A stretch of DNA of 36,791 nucleotides from Candidatus Omnitrophota bacterium (GTDB lineage Bacteria > Omnitrophota > Gorgyraeia > 1-14-0-20-64-10), in assembly GCA_016201735.1 (NCBI GenBank), contig JACQCH010000039.1:1-36791 (forward strand). The letters are read 5' to 3'. Below the pieces are notes generated by a model, which was not told the origin of the DNA, made no database searches, and saw nothing but the letters and a program-made list of their open reading frames with translations. The position numbers and the translations under genes were made by a program. Below are positions 1,877 to 36,791 of this stretch, in pieces (positions within the stretch are counted from its first letter, which is position 1; each line of letters opens with the position of its first letter).

Positions 1877-1901
1877 CCCGAATTCACGCCGGCGATTGTC
1901 C

Positions 1902-1930
1902 TTGACATTTCGGCGGGGTTCGTCTAGGAT
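1902..1930 (+). promoter_or_regulatory. Strong promoter upstream of the cold-shock gene
   Basis: TTGACA (1902-1907) and TAGGAT (1925-1930) are separated by exactly 17 bases. Transcription should begin near 1937, leaving about 144 bases before the csp ATG at 2081, much longer than the other leaders in the window. Confidence 0.7.
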
Positions 1931-1936
1931 AGATCC

Positions 1937-2026
1937 GTTGTGAGTAAGTGTGAAACTGGCTGGTGAGAGTGATAGACAAGGTTCATACACGACTGCGCAG
2001 TTCTTACTCAAGCGGCAGTCGTTTTT
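1937..2026 (+). ncRNA. Structured cold-shock leader or short independent RNA
   Basis: About 90 bases run from the predicted start near 1937 to a T-rich tract. A terminator-like hairpin is formed by ACGACTGC (1989-1996) and GCAGTCGT (2015-2022) followed by TTTT-G-TTT. TGAGTAAG at 1941-1948 is an exact reverse complement of CTTACTCA at 2003-2010, which lies in the loop of that hairpin. The two pairings could form a pseudoknot or compete, as in an attenuator. Either the RNA is a separate small transcript ending near 2026, or it is a regulated leader of csp. No known family was recognised. Confidence 0.5.
1989..2026 (+). terminator. Intrinsic-terminator-like hairpin in the csp leader
   Basis: An 8-bp perfect stem with an 18-base loop is followed by T2022-T2026 and then GTTT. 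It precedes the csp start by 55 bases, so full-length csp mRNA needs read-through. The loop carries CTTACTCA, complementary to the transcript's 5' end. Confidence 0.5.
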
Positions 2027-2080
2027 GTTTATACGGTCTCTTCCTAGCTCGTTGAAGAAAGGAAGGTTATCCAAGTTTAT

Positions 2081-2296
2081 ATGGCAAAAGGTACTGTGAA
2101 GTGGTTCAGTGACCAGAAGGGGTACGGCTTCATCACCCCGGAGAACGGGAAGGACGTGTTCGTCCATTTCTCGGCGATCCAGGGCGAGGGTTTTAAGACC
2201 CTCCGCGAGGGTGAGGCGGTGGAATTTGAAATTACCACCGGCCCCAAGGGCGAGCAGGCTTCCAACGTGAAGCGGCTTTCCCCGGTCAGCGCGTAA
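2081..2296 (+). CDS. Cold-shock protein, CspA family
   Basis: This 71-residue single cold-shock domain binds single-stranded RNA/DNA and acts as an RNA chaperone. RNP1 is KGYGFIT (residues 15-21) and RNP2 is VFVHFSAI (26-33); the protein begins [14 protein letters not shown] and has the usual family length. A purine-rich GGAAGG lies at 2061-2066, 14 bases from the ATG, farther than usual, which fits a gene whose translation depends on leader structure. It has its own promoter (1902-1930) and a strong terminator (2327-2359), so it is monocistronic. Confidence 0.97.
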
Positions 2297-2326
2297 GAGT
2301 TTTCGCTCTTCGCGTATGAGTCATTG

Positions 2327-2359
2327 CAGGCCTGGGAGCGATCCCAGGCCTGTTTTTTT
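2327..2359 (+). terminator. Rho-independent terminator after csp
   Basis: CAGGCCTGGGA (2327-2337) pairs perfectly with TCCCAGGCCTG (2342-2352) around a GCGA tetraloop, followed by seven T. It lies 30 bases after the csp stop and just before the next gene's start. Confidence 0.95.
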
Positions 2360-5850: not shown

Positions 5851-6250
5851 GGCTGAAGGCCCCGGATCGGCGCGAGGCGTCCGGGGTCCTGTCGAGTGAG
5901 TGTCTCCCGGCATCGGGCCCTGTGTCATGGGTTTCCGATGATTTCCCGCCCTTCTGATTCACGCCCATTCCTGCTTGCTCAGTCCGGGCTTTGGGAGGAT
6001 GTGGTTTCTCTTGGACATCAGTTTATAAGGTTGGCCCTGCTGGGGGGAGCCACTGCACCCGCCACCCCTGGGTTCGCCATGTGCAAAGGCCCCGGCTCAG
6101 CGGATGAGTTCGAAGACCCTCGGAGGCCCGAGCGGGCATGGTGTCCCCTGGGAGCTGGAATTCCGGGGACGAGCGAGGGCCGGAGTAGGAGCGAGGCAGC
6201 CACGCTGGGGCTGCCGAGCGTGTCTGAGAACTCGCCGCTGAGCCGGGGCC
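5851..6250 (+). ncRNA. Structured RNA element, copy 1 (HEARO/omega-RNA-like?)
   Basis: This fills the 425-base gap between ychF and the aspartase gene. The core (6088-6250) is closed by a 16-bp perfect stem, 6088-6103 with 6235-6250. Inside are a GTCCCC/GGGGAC hairpin (6143-6148/6165-6170) and a GGCAGCC/GGCTGCC hairpin (6195-6201/6209-6215), plus CCGAGCGGGCA (6128-6138) and GAGCGAGGG. The upstream 240 bases resemble the region beside copy 2, with shared CCGGGGTCCTG, TCCCGGCATCGGGCC and GGCCCTGCTG. GTGA follows the element at 6255-6258. No ORF here looks real. The identity with HEARO/omega RNA is a recollection-based guess; the repeat family and its base pairing are seen directly. Confidence 0.7.
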
Positions 6251-6273
6251 ATTCGTGATAAAATAACGCTTCT

Positions 6274-17984: not shown

Positions 17985-18000
17985 GAGTCTATCTACAAAG

Positions 18001-18059
18001 GTCATCCTCGCGAAAGCGAGGATCTTATTTGAGAGGATTCCCGCTTTCGCGGGAATGAC
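18001..18059 (+). repeat. Double palindromic repeat between adaptor and RND genes
   Basis: Two hairpins in tandem, each with a CGCGAAAGCG- or CGCTTTCGCG-type core: 18001-18024 with GAGGATC and 18036-18059 ending GGGAATGAC. The same pair occurs at 23944-23992 and, in reverse orientation, at 26360-26408. Confidence 0.85.
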
Positions 18060-18061
18060 AG

Positions 18062-21000
18062 ATGAGTCTGCCCCGTTTTAGCGTCCACCGACCTGTCACC
18101 ACGATTATGATCTACGTGGCGGTCCTTCTCATGGGGGTGATCGCTTGGACCCGTCTTCCCCAGGAATTATATCCTCCCATTACCTATCCGCAGCTGACCG
18201 TGGTGACCCGCTACAAAGACGCCGCGCCCGAGGAGATCGAACTCCTCGTCACCAAGCCGATTGAGGAAGCGGTCGGGACCGTTTCCGGCTTGCGCCGGAT
18301 CAGTTCCGTTTCCAGAGAGGAAGTCTCTCTGGTGATCGCGGAATTCAACTGGAATTCCAACATGGATTTTGCCGCTTTGGGAGTCCGGGAGAAGATCGAC
18401 TTGATCAAGGAACGACTCCCCCGCGGCTCCGAGGATCCGGTGGTCGTCAAATTCAACCCCTTTGAACTTCCCGTCCTGGTCCTAAACCTTTCCGGAGGCC
18501 TTTCTTCCCATGAGCTTCTGGAGTTGGCTCGGAAACAAATCAAGAATGAGTTGGAGAAGGTGGATGGAGTCGCGGCGGTCAACATCTCCGGCGGATTAGA
18601 GCGGGAAATCCAGGTGGAGGTGGACCAGGGGCGCCTTCAGGCGGCGGGCTTGCCGATCTCTCAGGTAGTGGACAGCTTATCGAAGACGAACCTGAATTAT
18701 CCGGGCGGCACCATCAAGGAGGCTTTTTACGAGTATCTGATTCGAACGATGGGAGAGTTTCAGGTCGTTCCGGAAATCCCATCGATCGCCGTTGGAGTCG
18801 ACCAAGCGAAGGGGAAAGCCACCCAGCGGGAGTCCGGGGGGGACCGGCCGGGCCCCTTGAAGCGGGAGAAAGGCCTCGCCCCGTCGCTGAGGATGATTCT
18901 GCTGAAGGATGTGGCAACCGTCAAGGATACCTTTAAGGAGAAGACCTCGGTCTCCCGGTTTAACGGCGCGGAGAACATTTCCTTGAACATCCAGAAGCAG
19001 GCCGGGGCGAACACAGTCCAGGTGGCGAGCCGGATGAAACAGGCCATCGCCCGGGTCCAGTCCTCGCTGCCTCCCGGGGTGCAGTTGACCATCGCCTACG
19101 ATCAGTCCCTCTTTATCAAGAACGCTATTTCGGGGGTCCGCGACGCGGCAATCCAGGGAGGAGTCTTGGCTTTCATTGTGCTGTACCTTTTCCTGGGAAA
19201 CCCGTGGGCTTCCTTGAATGTGGCCGCCGCCATTCCCATCTCGGTTCTTGCGACGATCGGCCTGATGTACTTCAGCGGAACGACGATCAATATCATCTCC
19301 ATGGGCGGGCTTGCCTTGGGGGTGGGACTCCTCGTGGACGCGGGGATTGTCGTCGTGGAGAACATCGACCGATATCGGAGCAAGGGCAAACCTCCCCCGG
19401 AGGCAGCCGTTCAAGGGACGGAGGAAGTGGGGCCCGCCGTCATCGGCTCCATCCTGACCAACGTTGTGGTGTTTCTCCCTATGGTTTTTGTCTCCGGGAT
19501 TGTTGGGCAGCTGTTCAAGGACCTCGCCTATACCGTGACTTGGTCTAACCTCGTCAGCCTCGCGGTTTCCTTAACCCTGACTGCCTTATTTGCTTCCTGG
19601 ATTCGGCATGGAACGGGGCGTTCCCCCATTGAGCCGGCGATCAATGCCTTCCTGCGGTTTGATATGGTGCTGGTCCAGTGGTTCATCCGGCATCGTTTTC
19701 TGGGAATCGGGATTGTGCTCCTCTTATTTGGAGGATCCGTCGTCGGATTCGGGAAGTTGGATCGGGAGGTGCTCCCGAAGGCCGATCAGGGTCAGTTTAA
19801 TCTCCGAATCAATCTATCTCCCGGGACCCGTTTGGAGGTCACGGACCGGGTCGCTCAAAGGGTCGAAAAGGTTCTTCAGGCCGTTCCTGAGGTCCGTGAT
19901 GTGACGGTGACGATCGGCTCCTCGAAGGAGAAGAAGGCCGAGGAGATGGTGGAGACTCTGGGGTCCCATCAGGCGGCCGTTTTTGTCACCTTGAAGCCTC
20001 TTTATCGGGGGTGGAGAAGAATGTCGGGGCCTGGGTTTCGGACCCGGAGGAGCGCTGAGATTGTCAGGGAACTCAAAGACACATTGAGCAGGGAGCCGTT
20101 GGAGGGGGCCGAGATCGAGTACCTTCTCCAAGAATCGGCCATTAAATCCTCCGTCCTCGCCAGCGCCCCCGTCGTAGTGGAAGTCCGGGGGACCGAATTG
20201 CCCCAGATGGAGCAGTTGACCGGTCAGGTGCAGAAACTTTTGGGGGAGATACCGGGTCTCTACGGGGTCCAGACAAGCCTTGTCCCTCCTTCCCCGGAGA
20301 CCAAGGTGCACGTCAACAAGGATCGGGCCTCCGCTTACCACCTGTCGGTCAGCGACATTGCTTTGACGACTCAGACGGCCCTCAAGGGAACCGTGGCCAC
20401 GAAGTTCAAGGAGGCGGGGAAGGAGATCGACATCCGGGTGCGGTTGAGGAAACAGGATCGGGAGGATCTGAACAAAGTGCGCCGCCTGCTCATCCATTCT
20501 CCTTTGGAGATCGACGTCCCCCTGGCAGAGATCGCCTATTTGGCCGTCGGCAAAGGGCCCACGGAGATTAAGCGCCTGGACCAGCAGCGAACCATCCTGA
20601 TCTCCGCCCAGCTGTTTCAGCGCCCCTTAAACGAGGTGATCCAGGATGTGAATCAGAGCTTAAGGGTGTTGAGGATACCCTCCGGCTACACCGTGGCCTT
20701 GACCGGCGAGAACGAACAGATGAAGGAATCCTTCCAGTCCCTGATCTTTGCGCTGGGGCTGGCCGTGATCCTGATCTACATGGTCATGGCGGCAGAATTC
20801 GAGTCCCTCTGGGAGCCGTTTTTAATCATGGCGACGATCCCCATGTCTTTGATCGGGGTGACCTTGGGGTTGTGGGTGACCCACACCCCGGTAAGCGTGA
20901 TGGTGGCCATCGGCTTTATCCTGTTGGGAGGGATCGTCGTCAACAACGGGATTGTCTTAATCGAATATGTGAACCTCTTGAGGAAGGAAGGCAAGAGCGC

Positions 21001-21700
21001 GGAAGAAGCAGTCATCCAGGCCAGCCAGACCCGTTTGAGGCCGATCCTGATGACCGCCGCCGCCGAGGTACTGGGATTGCTTCCGTTGGCTCTCGGCCTT
21101 CAGGAAGGAGTGGAACTCCAGGGTCCCATGGCGATCACTCAAATGTGGGGGATGACCTTGTCCACTTTTCTCACCCTGATTTTTCTCCCCACCCTTTATG
21201 TGATGGGGGAAAACTTCTTCTCCCTTTTCTCTCGCGTGAAGGCTCCGGAGCTGCAGCCTGCGCTCCTGCTCGCGACTGTTCCTGCAGGGTTCCCGCCCCC
21301 GCCTCCCGTTCTCTTGGCAGCGCCAGCGCCGCCGGAGTTTCCGGAAATCCCCGAGGGTTTTGGAGGAGAAGAGGCGGTTCCGGAAGGACCTTCCGTCCTC
21401 TTCCCGTTGTCCGCGGAACCGATCATGAAGCCGGAGCCTTCGGAAGAACCGGTTAAGTTTGAAACGCCCGCCTCGGCCTTCCTTCCCCCCTTGAATCCGA
21501 GACAGAGGCAGCTGCTGGAGTACCTGAAGATCCACGGCCGGATCACCCGGAAAGATTTTGTTAAGTTGACCGGTGCCTCCGTCCCGACGGCGGCTCGTGA
21601 CCTCAAGGAATTGGCGGATCGGGGATTGATCGTTGGCTACGGTCCTTTCGCCAAGGGCAGGTACTATACCTTGGCGAAATCCGAAGGGGATGCGGCGTGA
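18062..21700 (+). CDS. RND efflux permease with C-terminal winged-helix DNA-binding domain
   Basis: At 1,212 residues this is an AcrB-type proton-driven exporter with a long tail. It has the N-terminal FSVHRPVTTIMIYVAVLLMGVIAW helix region, two large periplasmic loops and twelve expected helices. In helix 4 the proton relay reads LVDAGIVVVENI: D426 is kept but the second aspartate is replaced by alanine. Helix 10 reads GGIVVNNGIVLIEY. After the last helix (about 1055) comes a Pro/Glu-rich linker (about 1063-1140) and then about 65 residues starting NPRQRQLLEYLKIHGRITRK with KLTGASVPTAARDLKELADR and a wing ending GRYYTL. The tail matches winged helices found at the ends of Fic-like and DeoR-like proteins. 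RND C-termini face the cytoplasm, so it could touch DNA. The frame is unbroken across the junction. Confidence 0.9.
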   Translation: MSLPRFSVHRPVTTIMIYVAVLLMGVIAWTRLPQELYPPITYPQLTVVTRYKDAAPEEIELLVTKPIEEAVGTVSGLRRISSVSREEVSLVIAEFNWNSNMDFAALGVREKIDLIKERLPRGSEDPVVVKFNPFELPVLVLNLSGGLSSHELLELARKQIKNELEKVDGVAAVNISGGLEREIQVEVDQGRLQAAGLPISQVVDSLSKTNLNYPGGTIKEAFYEYLIRTMGEFQVVPEIPSIAVGVDQAKGKATQRESGGDRPGPLKREKGLAPSLRMILLKDVATVKDTFKEKTSVSRFNGAENISLNIQKQAGANTVQVASRMKQAIARVQSSLPPGVQLTIAYDQSLFIKNAISGVRDAAIQGGVLAFIVLYLFLGNPWASLNVAAAIPISVLATIGLMYFSGTTINIISMGGLALGVGLLVDAGIVVVENIDRYRSKGKPPPEAAVQGTEEVGPAVIGSILTNVVVFLPMVFVSGIVGQLFKDLAYTVTWSNLVSLAVSLTLTALFASWIRHGTGRSPIEPAINAFLRFDMVLVQWFIRHRFLGIGIVLLLFGGSVVGFGKLDREVLPKADQGQFNLRINLSPGTRLEVTDRVAQRVEKVLQAVPEVRDVTVTIGSSKEKKAEEMVETLGSHQAAVFVTLKPLYRGWRRMSGPGFRTRRSAEIVRELKDTLSREPLEGAEIEYLLQESAIKSSVLASAPVVVEVRGTELPQMEQLTGQVQKLLGEIPGLYGVQTSLVPPSPETKVHVNKDRASAYHLSVSDIALTTQTALKGTVATKFKEAGKEIDIRVRLRKQDREDLNKVRRLLIHSPLEIDVPLAEIAYLAVGKGPTEIKRLDQQRTILISAQLFQRPLNEVIQDVNQSLRVLRIPSGYTVALTGENEQMKESFQSLIFALGLAVILIYMVMAAEFESLWEPFLIMATIPMSLIGVTLGLWVTHTPVSVMVAIGFILLGGIVVNNGIVLIEYVNLLRKEGKSAEEAVIQASQTRLRPILMTAAAEVLGLLPLALGLQEGVELQGPMAITQMWGMTLSTFLTLIFLPTLYVMGENFFSLFSRVKAPELQPALLLATVPAGFPPPPPVLLAAPAPPEFPEIPEGFGGEEAVPEGPSVLFPLSAEPIMKPEPSEEPVKFETPASAFLPPLNPRQRQLLEYLKIHGRITRKDFVKLTGASVPTAARDLKELADRGLIVGYGPFAKGRYYTLAKSEGDAA

Positions 21701-21857
21701 CCCCACCCCTCCGGGGTCTCCTCGGCCTTCGGCCTCGTCGGTCAGGGTCCTCACCAGCTCGGACCCGTCGCCATACACGGCCTCGTTATTCCTCGGCCGG
21801 CGACCCTGTCATGGAGCAGGCCAGTTCCGGCCTCGGGCCTTGTGCGGAACTACGAGA

Positions 21858-22260
21858 GGCCCCCGGCTCGTGGGAGGGCTTCTCAGGCCCGCTCGTCGAC
21901 CCCAGCGTGGTCGACTTCGCTAATCGAAAATCCCTCGCTCGTCCCCGGAATTCCAGAGCGCGGGGGACACCGTGCCCGCTCGGAATTTTCATTGCCTTCG
22001 AAGCCCCTCCCCCGAGCCGGGGTCCTCGCATGAGACCTTCGGGGTGGCGGGGAGCGGTCCGATTCCCGTCAGCAGGGCCGACCCTTGAGGCCGAGCCCTG
22101 TCGAATGGAAACCCATGCTGAAATGAACGACCTTCCATGGAACGTCCTGTTGGGTTTGGCCACCTGCCGGTGCTCTGACATGGTGAATGTGAACAATCCA
22201 TCCGAATGAGGCCCGATGCCGGGAACGGACCGCTCCACGCCAGGACCCCGGGGTGGAGCC
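21858..22260 (-). ncRNA. Structured RNA element, copy 2
   Basis: The gap between the two RND genes (21701-22285) holds no credible gene. On the minus strand the core (22025-21858) is closed by a long stem, CCCCGGCTCG with CGAGCCGGGG plus GGGAGGG with CCCTCCC. Inside are the GTCCCC/GGGGAC hairpin and a GTCGACC/GGTCGAC hairpin (21895-21901/21909-21915) whose three changed pairs compensate relative to copy 1; the loop ACGCTGG is unchanged. CCGAGCGGGCA and GAGCGAGGG are kept. The 5' flank to about 22260 shares blocks with copy 1. The remaining 21701-21857 contains only small GC-rich hairpins such as CGGCCTTCGGCC. Confidence 0.68.
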
Positions 22261-22285: not shown

Positions 22286-25200
22286 GTGAACCTGCCGAGC
22301 TTCGGGGTAAGACGCCCCGTCACCATCGCGATGCTTTTCCTCTGCTTCATCCTGATCGGGATCATCGGCCTGACGCGACTTCCCATCGAGCTTTATCCCA
22401 ACTTCAGTTTCGGAGATATTTCGGTGATCGTGGATATCCGGGGCGGGATGCCTCCCGTGGAGGTGGAATCCAGAGTTACCAAGATCATTGAGGAAGCGAT
22501 CGGCGATACCACCCACATGAAGGATCTCATCTCCATCTCCGAAGAGGGCCGGGCCCGAGTGGTTTTGTCGTTCGAACCGGGCACCGACATGAATTTTGCC
22601 GCTCTGGAAGTCCGTGAAAAATTCTCGAAGGTTCGGTCCAAGCTGCCGCCGGAGATCGAGAAACCGATCATCGCGAAGTTTGAGCAGAACGACCAGCCGA
22701 TCGTCATCACGGCGGTGACCGCCCTCGATTCCACTCCGGAAATCTTGCGCCGCCTCGTGGATGAACAGATCAAGGATCAGATCATGCGGGTGGAGGGGGT
22801 GGCCAACGTGGAGATTGGAGGCGGCCGGGAGCGGAAGATCCTGATCGAGGTGGATCAGGATAAACTCCAGGCCTACCGCCTGCCCATCGACCGGATCACG
22901 CGGTTCTTGAGTGTGAGCAACTTAAATCTTTTGACCGGGGAGGTGGAGCGGCGGCGCGACAAATACCTGATCCGGGCCATGGGGGAATTCCACTCCCTCT
23001 CGGAGATTGAAAACCTGGGGATTGCCACGACTCCTTCGAACTCGATCATCCGCCTCAAGGACTTGGCGACGGTCAAGGATTCTTTTTTGGAGGCGACCAG
23101 CTTCGCCCGCGTCAACTCCCTCCCGGTCGTCTCCCTCTACATCCAGAAAGAGACGACGGCCAACACCGTCAAGGTGGCTGGGGAGGTCTTGAAGACTTTC
23201 GATCAGATCCAGAAAAACCCCAAGATGCCTCACAATCTGAAATTCATCGTCACCTACAATCAGGCGGTGCAGATCCAGAAGGCGATCGAGGAGGTCGGGT
23301 CTGCCTTGATCAGCGGGGCGGTTCTGACGATCCTGGTTCTGGGGGCCTTTCTGGGCACGAGCCGGTTCGTCCGGCTGCTCTGCATCCCCTTTATGTTCGG
23401 GGTCACGGCTCTGGCGCTGGCAACCTACCGGTACTCGATCGTTCCGATCCATGTCACCACAGGGATCATGGATGGGCTGCTCCTTTTGCTCCTTGCCGGC
23501 GCGGCCATCTGGAAACATCTTCGCCTGACGCTGATCGTCGCGATCGCCATCCCCTTGGCGACGGTCATTACCTTGGGGCTGATGTTTTTTCAGAAGCTCA
23601 CCTTGAACATCATGACTTTAGGGGGTCTGGCGATGGGGATCGGGATGCTGGTGGACAACTCCATCGTCGTCCTGGACAACGTGATCAAACGTCTGTCACA
23701 GGGGCAATCCAAAGAGGCAAGCGCGGTGGAGGGGGCTTCCGAGATGCTCCTGGCGATCGTGGCGGCCACCCTGACCCACATCGTGGTGCTCCTGCCGATT
23801 GTCTTCGTCAACAAGGAGATCCGGATCCTGTACACCGGATTCGCGCTGACGATCAGCTATTCGCTGGCGGCATCCCTCTTTGTGGCCCTGACCGCGGTGC
23901 CTCTGCTGGCGGTGCGGCTGCCCTTTCCGGTGGCCTCCGAAACGTCATCCTCGCGAAAGCGAGGATCGGATTCCCGCTTTCGCGGGAATGACAAAGGGGT
24001 TTTGAAAACGGCGTTCCGAAAAATCATCATCGGCTCGTTAAGATGGCGTTGGGCGATCGGCGTGGGAGCTGTTTTCTTGGTTCTCGCCAGCTTCCAGATT
24101 TTCAAAACCATCCCGAAGGAATTCCTCGGAACAACCGAGGCGGAGGATTTCACGATCTTCGTGGAGCTGCCCACCGGGGCGAAACTGGACATTTCCGATC
24201 AGGCCGTCTCCAAGGTTGAAAAGCTCCTGAAGGATGTTCCGGAGGTCAAATCGGTTTCCTCCCGGGTGGAGCCCTGGTCTTCGAAGGTGTATGTGAAGTT
24301 GGTTCCTTTGTCGGAGCGGAGCCGCTCCACCAAGGACCTGATCGAGTCGCTCCGCCCGCAGGTGCAGGAGGTCGAGAAAGGGATCCGGGAGGCCTTCATC
24401 TATTTTGAAGAACCGGGGCAAACGGAGACCAACGAGGTGATTCTGGAGATTTACGGCTGGGATTACGAGGTTTTAAACCAGCTGGCCGTGGAGATGCTCA
24501 AGAGGATGCAGCAGGTCCAGGGATTGACCGACCTGAAGATCCGCTGGCGCCGGGGCCGGCCGGAATGGGAGATCCGGGTGGACAAGGTCAAGGCGGCCCG
24601 CTTTGGGCTGATGGTGGAAGATGTGGCCAACGCAATCCATGCCCAGATGCGGGGCCTGCGGGCCACCCTTTATCACTCAGCGTCGAAAGAAGTGGAGGTG
24701 ATCACCCGTTTGGAGGAGGCGGACCGGGCGACCTTGGAAAAGCTGCGCCGGATGACCTTCATCCTGCCGAACCGGGAGGTGGTTTTTTTGGAGCAGATTG
24801 CCCGCCTGGAGCCGGGGATCGGCCCCTCCAAGATCTGGCGAAAGAACCATGAACGGATGATCCAGGTTTCCGCCAACCGGGGACGCTACGCTTTTGGGGA
24901 GGCGGCCCAGAAGGTGTTCGAGGCGATTAAGGAAATGCCGTTTCCGAAGGATTATTACTGGCGCTTCGGGGAGAATTATTGGAAATTGATGCAGAATCAA
25001 AAGGAGCTTTCCTTTTCCTTGAGTTTGTCCCTGGTTCTGCTGTTTCTGGTTTTGGCCTCTCTGTTTGAATCTTACACCCAGCCCTTCATCATCATGATCA
25101 CCGTCCCGTTGGCGACCATTGGGTCCGTGGTGATTTTAAAGTTGATGAAACAGGCGTTGAACGTGGGAGCCATGATGGGGGCGATCCTGCTGGGTGGGAT

Positions 25201-25585: not shown

Positions 25586-25759
25586 AAGCTCCAACTCGGG
25601 GGCGGGTTCTCGGGACGTTCGCCGGCCCCGGCGAGGCCGGCTCACTCACTCTCAAGCCCTCGCTCTCCCGCTTTTCTAGACAAAGGATTTGAAGGAAGCG
25701 GGATCCATGCCCGCTCGGGCTTTCCAGTGCCCTCGAACCCATCCCCCGAGCCGGAGCTT
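25586..25759 (-). ncRNA. Structured RNA element, copy 3
   Basis: On the minus strand AAGCTCCGGCTCGGGGG (25759-25743) pairs with CCCCCGAGTTGGAGCTT (25602-25586): 17 pairs, two of them G-U, which points to an RNA structure. The second stem is now TCCCGCTT/AAGCGGGA and the third GCCGGCC/GGCCGGC with loop TCGCCGG. CCGAGCGGGCA and GAGCGAGGG are conserved. Upstream sequence differs from copies 1 and 2. GTGA occurs 7 bases beyond its 3' end. It lies 36 bases after the second RND gene, on the opposite strand. Confidence 0.68.
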
Positions 25760-25928
25760 TCTCTGAGACGGAATTCCAGTTGGCCCGAATCCCCGCGACG
25801 GGGGTGCCTACCCTGCTGGCGGGAGCCCTCCCGCTCCCTCCCCCAACCATTGAGGAGGCCTGCCTCTAAACTTGCAAAGCCTCTGCGATTCAAATTGTTA
25901 ATGGCGATATTAATTTTATATATACACC

Positions 25929-26172: not shown

Positions 26173-26293
26173 TCTCCCCGATAAAGGCAAACCCGTCGCA
26201 AGATGGGGACGCAAAGTCACGGGTCCAACGACCGTTCGTGCTGAGTTTGTCGAAGCACGAACGGCATGGATAGCCGGACTGCCGACATGGAGA
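26173..26293 (+). ncRNA. Cyclic-di-GMP-I (GEMM-I) riboswitch
   Basis: The conserved core is AAAGGCAAACC (26183-26193), then stem CCCGTC-GCAA-GATGGG with a GNRA tetraloop, GGGACGCAAAG, the P3 arm, and ATAGCCGGACTGCCGA (26270-26285). The P3 arm pairs TCCA (26224-26227) with TGGA (26267-26270), has an internal loop resembling a tetraloop receptor, and is then extended by a genomic palindromic repeat. P1 can be closed by TCTCC (26173-26177) and GGAGA (26289-26293). That GGAGA is also the Shine-Dalgarno for ATG 26300, so ligand binding could hide it and switch translation off. G at the position before GCAAACC fits c-di-GMP, though cGAMP variants exist. It lies upstream of the giant secreted-protein gene. 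Confidence 0.88.
26232..26264 (+). repeat. Palindromic repeat forming the distal P3 stem of the riboswitch
   Basis: CCGTTCGTGCT (26232-26242) and AGCACGAACGG (26254-26264) are perfect inverted repeats around GAGTTTGTCGA. The same family lies at 9462-9495. Here it extends the P3 helix beyond the tetraloop-receptor-like internal loop. Confidence 0.85.
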
Positions 26294-26299
26294 ATAACG

Positions 26300-26350
26300 A
26301 TGAGTCGACAGTCCAATGGAACCCAGACGAAATATCCGCGAGTTTTTTAA
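26300..26350 (+). CDS. Putative 16-codon leader peptide ORF after the riboswitch
   Basis: ATG 26300 has GGAGA six bases upstream and reads MSRQSNGTQTKYPRVF before TAA at 26348-26350. Its frame differs from that of the giant gene, which starts 60 bases later. It may be a leader ORF translated under riboswitch control, or the remains of the original start of the giant gene, displaced when a palindromic repeat (26360-26408) inserted. Confidence 0.4.
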   Translation: MSRQSNGTQTKYPRVF

Positions 26351-26359
26351 AGAGGCCCC

Positions 26360-26408
26360 GTCATTCCCGCGAAAGCGGGAATCAGATCCTCGCTTTCGCG
26401 AGGATGAC
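26360..26408 (+). repeat. Double palindromic repeat between riboswitch and giant gene
   Basis: It is the reverse complement of the repeat at 23944-23992: GTCATTCCCGCGAAAGCGGG first, then the GAGGATGAC-ending hairpin. Its right end supplies AGGA (26401-26404), a plausible ribosome binding sequence for TTG 26412. Confidence 0.85.
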
Positions 26409-26411
26409 GCT

Positions 26412-29400
26412 TTGCGGGGGGTGATCATCCCGTTGGATTCCCCGAAGCGGCGGCCGATCCTTCGTTTTATCTCCGCAGTTACCTGCTTTACCTTTATTCT
26501 CACGCAAGCTCCCTTCATTCGAACCGCTTCCGCGCTTCCTACGCATCCGACCGGTGCGGAAAATATAGCCAACCTCAACAGCATCGCCAATGCTTCTAAC
26601 TTGGTTAAATTTGAGCAATCGATTCGCAACCTCCAAGAGAGCATCGAACAGAAACGAAAATACAACGTAGCGATGGCGTCGCTGATCGCTGGGGCTCGAA
26701 TTATTCGGGGAATCGAGTCTCACGTGAACGAGATTGCCCAGGGAGCGCAAACGATCTATCAGGTGAGCTCCGGTGGGACCAATGTCATCGACACCTTGGC
26801 CGGCGTGGCCGGCGGTTACAACATCGCTGCGCCCGGGGATATTTTGTCGATCACCACGAGCGCCAATGGAATCGGCGGCGTGGGAATCGTCAAGCCCGGT
26901 GCCATTGAGTTTAATTATTCCATCCAGAGACAGAAAGACGAGCGGTTTCCTGTCTTAAAGATCTACTTCAAGAACGGGCAGGTTTCCCGAATCACGAATG
27001 AACGGATCAATTCCCCAGGAGGACCTTTCTACCGCGACACGCTGTTCCATCAGTACCACAACGGCCTGCCGATTTCTTACCAGGCCTTTGAGTACCGGGT
27101 GATCGACGACTTGCCTCATGATGCATTTCCCGGCGGGGTCCTGCCTCTGCGGGACATTACCTGGACAGGGAAGTGGAGCGAGGATTCGAAGTTCTATGCC
27201 TCGAAAACAACCCAGGCGAAGAAGAAACTTCTGGAGGAGGCGATCGATACGATCACCTACACAGCTTACACGCCGGGCGACATTCGGCGGATCATGGACA
27301 AGATCGCCGAGGTGACGCAGAACGGGGATTCCCCCGCCTGGGTCAAGGCCATGCAGCAGGCCCTGGCTCCCGGGGGCGGGATCCGGTTGGGAGTGGTGGA
27401 CGAGCGGCGAGACCTGGTTGAGAAGTTCTACCGGGCGCACGATGGACAGGGCCGGCCGACTCATTGGCATGAGGTCCGGACCGATTACTCAGGGATGACG
27501 GAACCGGCCGGAGTCACCGATGCGCAGGTTACCGTCGATTACATCGACGACAGCGAGAAAAAGATACGCACCTACAATGAGGTGGGCACTCACAAGGCGA
27601 TGTTCGTCAGCCCGTCCGGTTACCAGCGGTACGCCGACTGGTCGACGCAAATCCTGGATCATCCCGAGGCCTTCCCGCAGGAACAGGTGGACGCGGCCAG
27701 GCACGTCAGAGAGATGATGAATCCGGGCGGGCAGTTGACTCCGAATCAGCGCTATGAAAGCACCTTCACCCTGGTGCGGACGTACGGCTCAAACGATTAC
27801 AACGACAAAGAAGATCCGATTCATTGGAAGGAACGGCGTACCTCCTCGACCGGCCCGGACACAGAGATAGAGACTACCATGACTTACGATTCCGAGCAGC
27901 GGATGGTCAGGCAGGTGGATGAGATCCGGGAAAAAGGTTCTTATTCGGCGGCAGACATTGATTCGTACTGGGATCTGGTCCGCAGGATCAAGGCCAAAGG
28001 GGTTGACGCCACGGCGGCGGATGTCCAGCGGGCCGGGGACCTGCGGCTTAAATTGGACAGCGGGGAGATCTCCATTGAAACCCCGTTTGTCCGGAATCAG
28101 AAGGTGACCCGGGATGGCTTCGTCTACAACGATTCCCGGCTGTCGGTGGAGTGGATCCAGACGGCCCAAGTCGGCGGCACGGAGACTCGGGAGCGTTTCC
28201 TGACTTATTACAACGACGGGCTCGGCCGCAACCGGGAGCTGTTGGTGTACACCGATGAGAAGACCCGCCTGGAGGACGATGTTCGCCAGAAGCTCCGGGA
28301 GCAGGCGTTGGCGATCTTAAGAAATCCGGACTCGACCGAGGCGGGGCTCAAGGCGGCTCAAGAGACGTTGGCTTTTCTCAGATCGGAGCAAGTGCCGACC
28401 GTTTTTTCCCGCAGTTCCATCCGATACCGTGGAAAGATCATCTACAACGCATCGAATCTTCCGATCGAATACACGGAGGTGACAACTTCCAACGCCGATC
28501 GGATCGCCACCCAGAGCCACGTTCAGGCGATCGTCTACAACCCGATCGGATTGGAGCTAAGCTCCTTCTCTCAGATTCAGCGGACCGGGACGGGCACCCG
28601 CAACGCCTACTTCTTGTCCGACGGGACGACGGAGCTGACCGCCCAGACGGCCCCGATGCTCCGGAGTTTGCTGGCGGCCTATTATTCGACCGGCAAGCAG
28701 GCGGCAATCCAGGATTTGATCGACCTGGGAGAGATCCAGGCCTTTGACGCCCAGGGCAACTCGATCACCGAGCAGCAGATCGAAGGTATCCTCCGGGCCA
28801 ACCCGATCGTCATCAATCAAGCGACCACCGGGAAACTGGTTGACCAGGGGATTCTGGTGAAGCAGCCGGACGGCTCCTATACCGATGGGGACGGCAATGT
28901 GCGGAGTCAGGCCGAGATTGACGCCCTGATTGCCCAATACACCGTTACCCGGCCCAGGACGATCGACGAAGCGATCCAGGACGGTTATTTGAAATTGTTG
29001 GACCGAAGCGGGAATCCTCTGGATGAATCCAGTGTCGCGGTTCTGCTCCGCCGGCATTCGCTGGAACCGCATGTGCCCACACTGGATGAGCTGGTAACGC
29101 GGGGCGCCCTGAAGAAGGTCGAGGGTGTTTCCTACACATTGGATCAGGCCTCCAATGTGTTCCGCCACGGCTTCGCCTACGATCACCTGGCCCGGGTGAT
29201 GGAATTCACCGAAGAGACCACCAATCCCAGCGATGGGATAAAGACCACAACCCATCTTTACGGAATTACCCACGATTCTCAAGGCAGGCAGACTTCATCG
29301 GTGCAGGAGGTCCGCAGACAGGGGACGGGTCTGCGGACAACCCTTTTCTCTGAAGGGGAGGAGCTGTCGGCCCTGGACTTGCAGGAGCAGCTTCCCAAGG

Positions 29401-35400: not shown

Positions 35401-36791
35401 AAACCGTCTTCGGCGAGAAATTCAGCAGCAGCACGCAGGATACTTACATCACCATCCAAGGACAGTTGAAGGTTGCCCAGTCCGTGACGACGAGGACCAG
35501 CTCCCGGCTGGATGGTACCGTGGTGGTCGACACCGGCGAAACCAACTTCGAATATACGAACAACCGGCCGGGCGATCGGGAGGCGCTGATGGCTTCTGCC
35601 TTCTACCGGAATCCGGACGGGACGATCCAGGACCGGTTCCTGCTGCCCAACGGCCGGGTTCGGCGCGGCCTAGTAAGGAGTGTCACCGGCACCGCTTCCT
35701 CTACATGGGTTACCGCCTTCGGTGAGACCGGCGATTCCACCACCGCGCAGAACTACGACATCACCGCGGCCGGAGCCAGGGTAACCCTCTCCGACACGCA
35801 GTCCTCCACTCATGGCATCGATGGGACGGAAACGACCTCCACACAGGTCCGGCAATTTACCTTTGATCCGGCCACCGGGGTTCTCGTGTCGGCCAGCGGA
35901 TTCACCCGCAGCCACTCCACCGATCCCTTCGGGGCGGTAACCGATACTTGGACTACGCCTACCTATCTCATCCTCAATAACCAAGCGCAGGAAGTTGAGG
36001 CATTCACCAGATCGAATACGGTCACCTTAGCCGGAGACGTGATCGATGAGGTTTCTAATGATGAGATTCTAGTCACCACCGGTACGGAAGATCCGGCAAC
36101 TTTGCCGGCCGAATACAGCAACCCATTGCTTGATGGGACTCGTCCTCCCACTGGTCGAGTTTGGGCAGGACTGCAATATGGAAGGAGACAGCAGCTGTTA
36201 ACGGCCGCGCAGATAGAAACTCTGGCACAGGTTGGTTGCGACGTGAGCGCGGCAACCTTAACAGCAATAATGGGAATTGGATTGGTGTATCCAAGGACGG
36301 GGCTATTGCTTCATCCTGGGTCGTTGTCTGTGACCCGTAGCTGGGATGGGTCCAGCACCTACGCCACAAGTTGGCGCCAGTACCAGGTGGTCATGGGGAA
36401 TACGGCAAATCTGCTGAGGCAGACGACCTTCACGATGGGTTTGGATGGGGCGCAGAACTTTCATGGGTCGGTGGGTACGTTTGTTAATGAGTTTAATGAT
36501 CCCATCTTGAAGGCGAGGATCACAGGGCGGCGTGATACGTTGGCGACAACGGCGCAGCTGGAGATTCTGGAGGAGGCGGGTCTTACGATTGGCCCCCTCG
36601 TGGGGACCGTGCTTGGTTCCGGGGTCGCCGGCGCCGCCGGCAATCTGCTGCTGGCCGGCATTTTCGGCGCTGGTTTTCAGTGGGACGGTTCCAGCGACTA
36701 TTCGGTGACGACCAACAAGTATCTGACGACGGTGGTTGCCAACCAGGTGATCACTCCCGAGACCCAGACGGTGGGCGGCGGTTTCAGAGCC
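26412..36791 (+). CDS. Giant secreted protein, at least 3,460 codons, open at the window edge
   Basis: One frame stays open from TGA 26301 to the window edge. TTG 26412 (AGGA at 26401-26404) or GTG 26421 is the likely start. A signal peptide follows: KRRPILR, hydrophobic FISAVTCFTFIL, end near TASA. Residues 40-110 look helical; then come long beta-rich stretches with YD/RHS-like strands (FAYDHLARVMEFTEET near 919). Three EF-hand loops are visible: DNNGDGDTDDPE (1483), DGDGDGVVAAGE (2055), DTNGDGQIGSDE (2090). Six or so units of the type LTxxQxxxLxxG plus a beta-hairpin lie at 32300-33800. About 2690-2890 is a C39-like peptidase: INCGAIALSAFLQ with C2744, ADHWVTFLG with H2842, and YIDSD with D2863. 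A Pro/Gly-rich linker and more repeats follow. It is probably a surface or extracellular protein under c-di-GMP control. Confidence 0.85.
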   Translation, partial: MRGVIIPLDSPKRRPILRFISAVTCFTFILTQAPFIRTASALPTHPTGAENIANLNSIANASNLVKFEQSIRNLQESIEQKRKYNVAMASLIAGARIIRGIESHVNEIAQGAQTIYQVSSGGTNVIDTLAGVAGGYNIAAPGDILSITTSANGIGGVGIVKPGAIEFNYSIQRQKDERFPVLKIYFKNGQVSRITNERINSPGGPFYRDTLFHQYHNGLPISYQAFEYRVIDDLPHDAFPGGVLPLRDITWTGKWSEDSKFYASKTTQAKKKLLEEAIDTITYTAYTPGDIRRIMDKIAEVTQNGDSPAWVKAMQQALAPGGGIRLGVVDERRDLVEKFYRAHDGQGRPTHWHEVRTDYSGMTEPAGVTDAQVTVDYIDDSEKKIRTYNEVGTHKAMFVSPSGYQRYADWSTQILDHPEAFPQEQVDAARHVREMMNPGGQLTPNQRYESTFTLVRTYGSNDYNDKEDPIHWKERRTSSTGPDTEIETTMTYDSEQRMVRQVDEIREKGSYSAADIDSYWDLVRRIKAKGVDATAADVQRAGDLRLKLDSGEISIETPFVRNQKVTRDGFVYNDSRLSVEWIQTAQVGGTETRERFLTYYNDGLGRNRELLVYTDEKTRLEDDVRQKLREQALAILRNPDSTEAGLKAAQETLAFLRSEQVPTVFSRSSIRYRGKIIYNASNLPIEYTEVTTSNADRIATQSHVQAIVYNPIGLELSSFSQIQRTGTGTRNAYFLSDGTTELTAQTAPMLRSLLAAYYSTGKQAAIQDLIDLGEIQAFDAQGNSITEQQIEGILRANPIVINQATTGKLVDQGILVKQPDGSYTDGDGNVRSQAEIDALIAQYTVTRPRTIDEAIQDGYLKLLDRSGNPLDESSVAVLLRRHSLEPHVPTLDELVTRGALKKVEGVSYTLDQASNVFRHGFAYDHLARVMEFTEETTNPSDGIKTTTHLYGITHDSQGRQTSSVQEVRRQGTGLRTTLFSEGEELSALDLQEQLPKAWLADWNGFELREVEAPIDLTVITYQQETNYYGFSTLAEGGRSIISTRGGPRDGVTATEETSLTRFNDKGQLLSQFVKTQQSGVDTISLPYIGDERLTIERMQALQQSFPDLTVKDMFDVGLLRMVKQPSIMNNGTQTYRSGMEYEKETGFLKKQMELTSSDQSPGSTTVDFLDASYSSTGQLLFSRTKNRSTLFDLEGSSDLMTFNALDPKGQLRYAEAVGTQSNSDLFGSGSDRLVRRYSVGVNGQSKLVADISMGLARELDGSAFQIGERTTYQYDAFGNVVHADGSSTRIGTDVWGNFSKRSQHTLYGVINGDPKAALTFSTDPSELGKPEPLGTGATFSLLKDQAKQQGITGSAPAPFLANPQDYDKVTVADLSLFQVYKFLQKSDGKLTGALIDIPGVQIPVLNVNDINVDAAGVITIDSGSGYNHAKYVVQTLSDGTVQTTRYSFKSENFTSKEVEAQVMITASSNGVTTTTDQSISFKDNNGDGDTDDPEDRVDATTRVVNAIGLISVTSQYTDGNVNGTVAISGIGYQASIFNVTNVTLNTDQITVEGTGVTFTINQGASGTTITKKVADNLDQTQNQSVTIQRLTRQDGDLTVSTLLTVVRNSQDQVTKATWVDEVSQTAWATLTARWDDHGTASDLADDTAAVIINGEQGYTTHYFGKVTDIGFAAGDPEQVAFVDHASDGTDHTYRIQRGNSALTVQDTTASTQTETSRIGGTITTLYRNADGTVAQTIRVEEGTYLTKIRTYQGDYQADAPDQNVVIGEDVIGQGFTRTDLHIDSDGNLVWADANGDVVRSNTNPGSDYHLLTTQRTIFYLTDSNIPSQIARITYDANDSAVASPTGDIRDVYMEQYNDSGAAVKVMQVARQGGEIQWARQQKYDQSGSRQIFNLVMKTHEDGSQYRDLVGIFTDASGARTRIFAIPDNTVMDGSFPKRAILEIANSEQVAPLRIYVESGDPATLAADLSTLTEDQWDGLLGGPIDLTVNGQTYTVRLPQVGDADDHLATLSVPAPTPVRGTLQIVSYTGSTSPPDISMLDLMRLAWAKRISVPGDGDGDGVVAAGETTTDPKKVLEYIRQGGKEITIPWDTNGDGQIGSDETVTVQQAGLDLSVLLTDQRDALLNGQAISLSQRQIISFVNYTGSGAPPTLDQIQLSEADRNNLMLGQDVTVAVNGDSATIRRFKPDTASKFVTISKWVNADGTAGTGTPPSLDGISLDDQQWADLQKFGGEITVTLADGTQVTLKSQGGLAEDQNSRLGVGDTTLVRGLVATNFDSDGKATSGVVQEQTLSNIQMQATYSQGIINYFGNPADLKLEFIQNADGTTTRRYLYAADDPARQMTIDINPDQFLEAYRPQMEGTLRITHTLDYGWMPAVTGWDEMNGDQVVQHHDGATELPPALNTVRLTEQQRLDLEAGSSVVLTTPDKKYQITIQKSAVDPASLTDQQVKDLKAGRFLWVGSDLLGLLTVSSGIYYLTSKTTEIYQVEENAAGILTVRKKDAQGAWTEDVTGSFDQKEMKSFRDAVSQITKKPTEGSSDKSQASSAPVGLSQPIAVDPMQDESDTDLDGNRTETARMARVISVAVTGGTDFPQISGFDLSDSMSLVGLLDSWGKGDFKDYNGFGYRFEHAPDLPPIVGVIGAKVLMGSVRLPKPPAVVGASAGSNDWSGTNVTYTEITGSTPPNDTGGSNPLAEQVYAKIDQTLRDLMSTLGGAAAGALGILSDVRIVDLINRLRNAFGGFIINCGAIALSAFLQARGYLADAADQVTAAARLMVRQLVDFGEKMIVQSLVGPAISAYTIRMVADEMAGESMQTIQVGPNSEGLYLRILSASAMAAIIHFADHWVTFLGLVQGTDGTTLVRYIDSDNQEHDLDLVDFLSRWRVGGGFALVTKTNLSSGSGSTPGPPGLPPTPSGPSTGQTPLSVRPIEGTKEHLIFAPPIDPHQLLTGAQPIPLLTAKNIDRIDLDGTASHTDNYLQYDYNEEGKLVGGVGSSTTYGETVFGEKFSSSTQDTYITIQGQLKVAQSVTTRTSSRLDGTVVVDTGETNFEYTNNRPGDREALMASAFYRNPDGTIQDRFLLPNGRVRRGLVRSVTGTASSTWVTAFGETGDSTTAQNYDITAAGARVTLSDTQSSTHGIDGTETTSTQVRQFTFDPATGVLVSASGFTRSHSTDPFGAVTDTWTTPTYLILNNQAQEVEAFTRSNTVTLAGDVIDEVSNDEILVTTGTEDPATLPAEYSNPLLDGTRPPTGRVWAGLQYGRRQQLLTAAQIETLAQVGCDVSAATLTAIMGIGLVYPRTGLLLHPGSLSVTRSWDGSSTYATSWRQYQVVMGNTANLLRQTTFTMGLDGAQNFHGSVGTFVNEFNDPILKARITGRRDTLATTAQLEILEEAGLTIGPLVGTVLGSGVAGAAGNLLLAGIFGAGFQWDGSSDYSVTTNKYLTTVVANQVITPETQTVGGGFRA
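32574..32714 (+). other. Two EF-hand-type calcium-binding loops in the giant protein
   Basis: Residues 2055-2066 read DGDGDGVVAAGE and residues 2090-2101 read DTNGDGQIGSDE. Both fit the 12-residue loop pattern with acidic or Asn side chains at 1, 3 and 5, Gly at 6, a hydrophobic residue at 8 and Glu at 12. Calcium could stiffen the chain outside the cell. A third, less regular loop is at 30858-30893. Confidence 0.7.
34480..35060 (+). other. C39-like cysteine-peptidase domain inside the giant protein
   Basis: INCGAIALSAFLQARGY resembles the (Q/N)CGxxxL helix start of papain-like C39 peptidases, with C2744 as the nucleophile candidate. About 98 residues on, ADHWVTFLGLV offers H2842, and RYIDSDN offers D2863, with spacing close to C39 enzymes. 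The usual oxyanion-hole Gln is replaced by Asn, so activity is uncertain. A Pro-rich linker ends the domain. Confidence 0.55.

Follow-up and report, generated by a model that had tools for sequence, protein, structure and literature searches.

The question raised by this locus is what kind of element recurs three times within one 36,791-nt contig of a Candidatus Omnitrophota bacterium (the window, meaning the whole stretch of DNA analyzed). The original prediction, made from the letters of the window, was a family of three structured RNAs with compensatory base changes, resembling HEARO/omega RNA or else possibly undescribed. All three copies were found where they had been placed, and in each the letters agree with those quoted for the hairpin arms, for the second and closing stems, and for the constant blocks. 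They have a fold of ~165 nt in common, and pairwise alignment of the three identified constant blocks CCGAGCGGGCA, GAGCGAGGG, and (A/T)CGC(T/C)GG amid changing stems. Each folds better than 200 of 200 of its own shuffles, with z scores against dinucleotide shuffles of -7.7, -5.1, and -6.4 for copies 1, 2, and 3.

Copies of the element in the window

A covariance model (R1, alignment A3) was built from 12 copies in the host genome, an assembly of 1.81 Mb in 67 contigs that is 95% complete. Matches to R1 and the parts of each copy are as follows.

5860-6082, +: copy 1, 5' extension, as in the long copies of the host genome (edge inferred)
6083-6256, +: copy 1, whole folded element (outer closing stem and core); R1 match 6089-6250, 160.9 bits
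6088-6108, +: copy 1, closing stem P1, 5' arm; predicted fold and family covariation (helices 1-2)
6125-6129, +: copy 1, P2 5' arm GGCCC, partner of 6177-6181 (GGGCC); covariation helix 5
6131-6140, +: copy 1, conserved unpaired block AGCGGGCATG, in which G6136-C6137 form the pseudoknot with C6205-G6204
6143-6170, +: copy 1, P3 hairpin GTCCCC...GGGGAC; helix 8, 98% paired in the family
6171-6179, +: copy 1, conserved block GAGCGAGGG (family alignment)
6177-6181, +: copy 1, P2 3' arm GGGCC; covariation helix 5
6195-6215, +: copy 1, P4 hairpin GGCAGCC-ACGCTGG-GGCTGCC, the terminal-core hairpin of the original prediction; helix 10, 97.4% paired
6229-6250, +: copy 1, closing stem P1, 3' arm; predicted fold and family covariation
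21858-22029, -: copy 2, whole folded element; R1 match, 148.3 bits
22030-22287, -: copy 2, 5' extension with outer inverted-repeat arm (CACCCCTCCGGAG...CCGGGGTCCTGGCGTGGAGCGGTCCGTTCCCGGCATC)
25586-25762, -: copy 3, whole folded element in its shortest form, lacking the long 5' extension; R1 match, 143.9 bits

The family is not limited to these three members. A DNA search of the host genome with copy 1 identified 23 places (two further rows are the arms of copy 1 itself), and R1 identified about 26 copies. Within the longer spans first assigned to copies 1 and 2 (5851-6250 and 21858-22260), the core part stands; the remainder is a 5' extension of ~230 nt that is common to many host-genome copies and absent from copies elsewhere, apart from one further contig (L089). 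The GTGA noted 3' of copies 1 and 3 was not a family-wide feature in a listing of the flanks.

The window has several other features. An open reading frame of at least 3,496 aa, representing a giant protein gene, starts at 26304 (+) and runs past the window end at 36791, with a c-di-GMP-I-GGC riboswitch directly upstream (26177-26287, 70.9 bits). A second palindromic repeat family (GTCATTCCCGCGAAAGCGGGAATC type) occurs at 17997-18067, 23940-24000, and 26356-26412; the giant open reading frame contains one copy, and another is in-frame within an RND efflux gene (SSRKRGSDSRFRGNDK). A further repeat adjoins element copies at ~21700-21800 (-) and at three other loci (L038, L041, and L099) and reads GDGSELVRTLTDEAEGRGDP in one frame. 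There is also a sub-threshold match to the cspA thermoregulator at 1891-2356 (+), with 38 bits against a gathering threshold of 78, over a cold-shock-like gene.

Conserved fold, distribution, and known RNA families

The compensatory changes seen in three copies are strongly supported by covariation over 112 diverse copies, in which 53 of 56 pairs have double-sided changes. Across these pairs and sequences, 89.8% of cells are paired and the covariation score is 0.746, compared with 56.4% and 0.172 in shuffles; slid-partner controls gave 39%-45% paired and a covariation of 0.108 or less in all. When 93 sequences were aligned with the covariance model, nearly every model pair ranked among the top covarying column pairs, and all four Watson-Crick types were represented. 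Two covarying features lie outside the search model: a helix between P1 and P2 (P2a) and a pseudoknot, absent from the original prediction, that pairs the third G of the GCGGGCA block with the C of the P4 loop. This pair (alignment columns 73-218) is formed in 111 of the 112 copies (G-C in 95, C-G in 14), in an alignment that is biased toward the model's own pairs but not toward the pseudoknot, and a second pseudoknot pair (columns 74-217) is invariant. The element core of ~125 nt is a three-way junction of P1, a P2-P3 arm, and P4. The pseudoknot joins the P2/P3 internal loop to the P4 loop, and a long palindromic outer P1 stem closes the core. The conserved fold is almost certainly real.

Mismatches in paired columns are asymmetric among the 112 copies (A.G 403 vs C.T 22; G.T 146 vs A.C 72), and 108 of the 112 fold better on the strand first assigned to them. 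From this asymmetry and the folding energies, the structured strand is therefore the one originally given. The active folded molecule is, on balance, probably RNA, and single-stranded DNA folds could also produce strand asymmetry.

The models were used to search relatives and public genomes. R1 found the element in 29 of 59 relatives, and an exact pattern (CGAGCGGGCAYGG-N20-50-GAGCGAGGG) matched 90 contigs of GTDB genomes, mostly Candidatus Omnitrophota but also Aminicenantes, Auribacterota, Margulisiibacteriota, and several Patescibacteria. Genome G033 shares one locus with the complete chromosome CP070837.1 (L053 equals L139). A broader model (R2), built from 112 copies, identified the element in 103 of 237 Omnitrophota genomes sampled, with 34 copies in an Auribacterota genome, 16-25 per genome in Aminicenantes (16-34 across these two phyla), 20 in Kerfeldbacteria, and five in a 0.4-Mb Azambacteria genome. 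The many copies per genome argue against misbinning. Pattern matches in Streptomyces, a planctomycete, Oceanobacillus, a chloroflexus, and Desulfofustis were attributed to chance; R2 gave nothing in these pattern-only genomes or E values of about 5e-4, which indicates that the models are specific. Carriage by phages or plasmids was also rejected, with no match to the exact pattern in 2.9 million viral contigs and no element match in plasmids.

We compared the element with known RNA families to see whether the suggested HEARO/omega identity could be confirmed. A search of Rfam 15 (E ≤ 1) with the window and eight diverse loci returned only unrelated matches, and nothing plausible was obtained with isolated cores at E ≤ 10. 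The HEARO model (RF02033) was silent in the window, across the whole host genome, and, even at E ≤ 10, on isolated cores. The alternative suggestion, a structured family that may be undescribed, is strongly supported. RF02033 is detectable in 65% of the 5' UTRs of HEARO nucleases (PMC9755519), so its repeated absence carries weight. The IscB RRXRR domain (PF14239) was found in none of the 59 relatives, a weak negative in that the positive control was also silent. A stand-alone HEARO/omega RNA acting with an IscB or IsrB encoded elsewhere would account for the size, the multi-copy habit, the pseudoknot, and the link to mobility, but against the silence of the model and of the RRXRR search this reading is hardly tenable. 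TnpB-associated omega/reRNA was rejected (PF07282 is in three of 59 genomes and absent from 27 of the 29 with the element), as was a group I/II-like intron, for which there is no Rfam match and the host reading frames are open and in frame. Searches of the open PMC library turned up nothing relevant on palindromic or structured-RNA repeats in Omnitrophota or Parcubacteria.

Genomic placement and exchanged closing stems

Copies are dispersed in genomes and occupy unrelated sites, and the element is very likely mobile. Gene calls rested on open reading frames alone, and an open frame was a selection criterion for intragenic cases. In-frame copies were identified inside recG, OGG, queA (in two genomes), queH, pyrK, and DUF819 (twice), with host reading frames recognized by Pfam/NCBIfam; tonB is a weaker case, and glyS was dropped because the copy precedes the conserved protein start. 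The two DUF819 copies are from two genomes and occupy the same loop in opposite orientations, and the queH insert is in a variable loop. Seven of nine intragenic copies are antisense to the host gene. A gene lies within 60 nt of the 3' side of the element in 43 cases, and in 34 of these its 3' end is toward the element. In queH of another genome (G012, L265), the QueH loop that holds the element in G039 has a different repeat peptide, LLDSGLRRNDGKDEGDSGRRNDE, also in-frame.

Close doublets are head-to-head with their 3' sides outward in every one examined, and some head-to-head pairs enclose accessory genes. These include pairs that bracket a DUF4145 gene (L250), a 3-kb block between ruvB and queH (L253), and a trypsin-like protein beside ruvB (L314). 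No transposase was found inside the element-flanked cargo blocks examined, so the copies did not prove to be ends of a plain DNA transposon for which some relative carries the transposase; they may still have a role at the DNA level. The region downstream of ruvB, where several Omnitrophota genomes have copies of the element or gene blocks bounded by it (L253, L314, and L121), is a possible hot spot.

The closing stems vary independently of the core. Six copies in one genome (G016) have a near-identical unit of ~125 nt with cores that are 87%-92% identical. Their outer closing stems are mutually unrelated, except in two copies of one composite, and each is self-complementary over ~16-25 bp. 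P3 and P4 are hypervariable across the family yet nearly identical among these copies, so pure drift was rejected as the cause of the unlike outer stems. Nesting was observed in one genus, where five of 10 copies (plus one half case) occupy the tip of the P3 hairpin in an outer copy of inverted orientation, and removal of the inner copy from a nested pair in silico yields an intact outer copy. The nested copies may represent one amplified composite and not repeated insertions. Unlike self-complementary stems on cores that are ~90% identical, together with copies placed exactly at hairpin tips, point to tip insertion, a mode to which we give about an even chance.

A clean empty site bears on this mode. 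Genome G027 lacks the entire insert present in G227, between two otherwise aligned genes, and the empty site has no palindrome. The outer stem can therefore apparently also arrive with the core, which conflicts with an outer stem that is the target hairpin unless the palindrome is itself mobile or has since been lost. An outer stem formed as an inverted copy of the host flank was not observed at this one site. Core-less long palindromes are present in G027, with 39 in 825 kb compared with none in locally shuffled sequence. These near-perfect palindromes (loci L341-L400) have arms of 14-27 bp and form families such as TCCCGTTCGNCGATCGGGA and GTCCACCCCGTAGGTGAGCC.

No helper enzyme emerged from a search of the 59 relatives: the presence of Y1 transposase, reverse transcriptase, or TnpB is unrelated to that of the element, and IscB was not detected (its control was silent). 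The Y1 (HUH) transposase is absent from the host genome and from the copy-rich genomes G000, G001, G002, G004, and G005, and it does not co-occur with the element (21 of 29 element-bearing vs 26 of 30 element-free relatives); a Y1/RAYT helper was rejected on these grounds. A reverse-transcriptase helper of the group II intron or retron type was also rejected, with PF00078 absent from the host genome and present in 11 of 59 relatives, uncorrelated with the element.

Explanations and relation to known systems

This element family is previously uncatalogued, widely distributed, structured, and very likely mobile. The explanation that we favor, at roughly even odds of being correct, is a family of small, protein-less mobile elements with a knotted core, moved in trans by a putative enzyme and inserted at hairpin tips. 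The putative enzyme would recognize the folded molecule as a single strand (RNA in the likeliest case, or else single-stranded DNA) and would place the core at hairpin or palindrome tips. In that case, the target would supply the outer stem, and the host would tolerate copies as in-frame peptides or at gene 3' ends. It is possible, and we suggest it tentatively, that this is an RNA mobile element of a new class, in which a small pseudoknotted RNA would direct or catalyze its own hairpin-tip insertion with a trans-acting protein and paired copies would carry accessory genes. With the same caution, this RNA might be ancient and common to Omnitrophota, Aminicenantes, Auribacterota, and Patescibacteria.

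The rival readings account for parts of the data. If the copies were DNA-only palindromic repeats of the REP or TIR kind, with no functional RNA, the fold would be the single-stranded DNA substrate of a trans-acting transposase. Consistent with this are head-to-head doublets whose 3' sides are fixed outward, cargo between inverted copies, and in-frame intragenic copies like those of REPs and RPEs (PMC3733652), and single-stranded DNA hairpins predict the same strand asymmetry. The lack of a Y1 transposase in copy-rich genomes and its distribution among relatives argue otherwise. So does a pattern of conservation in loops and a tertiary contact, and not in stems, as is more typical of RNA. We consider the DNA-only reading rather unlikely. 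A putative self-cleaving or self-processing ribozyme carried on a mobile element would also suit the fold, which is compact, pseudoknotted, and multi-helix, with stems free in sequence and junction letters that are fixed. We consider this reading quite improbable: the intragenic copies are mostly antisense, and hence outside the mRNA of the host gene, and no known ribozyme family in Rfam matches.

The strong placement directly after stop codons would be expected of a duplicated cis-acting 3'-UTR or terminator-like regulatory element, but those genes are antisense to the structured strand, other copies lie within genes or in divergent upstream regions, and no T-tract was seen, which makes this very improbable. 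A T-shaped palindrome, inverted pairs around genes, and closing stems that are self-complementary and free to change recall the terminal hairpins of a linear element with rolling-hairpin replication (parvovirus-like T-shaped ends). Most copies, however, are single and chromosomal, the viral and plasmid searches gave no match, and no Rep gene was found between the pairs examined; this origin is highly improbable.

The element has a phylum-spanning structure of a complexity that is usually limited to functional RNAs, yet is absent from Rfam, and dozens of copies can be present in the small genomes of its hosts, nearly all of which are uncultured bacteria. If it acts as RNA, large structured RNAs would gain a new class that has a tertiary contact and a putative partner. 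If it acts as DNA, a mobile repeat can retain a tertiary fold across phyla. The swapped closing stems and hairpin-tip nesting suggest an insertion mode that is open to direct testing, and the in-frame copies in recG, queA, queH, and pyrK represent peptides added to core proteins.

Like HEARO/omega RNA (RF02033), the element has a structured strand of ~200 nt within a mobile element, a pseudoknot, and potentially many copies. It differs in its junction architecture and in having no sequence or structure match, no recognizable guide segment, and no IscB found in the 59 relatives. Group IIC introns and IS1111/IS110-type elements at attC or REP hairpins insert at or near stem-loops. The element may resemble such hairpin-targeting mobile elements in this respect, but its host genome has no reverse transcriptase. 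Inverted doublets as apparent units are also a trait of REPIN/TIRYT doublets, which are moved by Y1 tyrosine transposases; in contrast, several copy-rich genomes here lack a Y1 transposase, and the unit is far larger and structurally elaborate. Rickettsia palindromic elements (RPE) and CGTC/GTAG-tagged REPs are dispersed palindromic repeats that occur in-frame in genes, including DNA repair genes (PMC3733652). The element is likewise palindromic, dispersed, multi-copy, protein-less, in-frame within protein genes, at transcription-unit ends, and in inverted dimers. RPE and tagged REPs are short simple hairpins with terminal tags in narrow lineages, whereas the element has a 125-nt pseudoknotted core that spans phyla, and its flanks have no GTAG/CGTC tag or other common terminal tetranucleotide. 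Membership in the REP/RPE group is thus only partial, and in behavior the element comes closest to a REP/RPE-type passenger, one that is built like a functional RNA.
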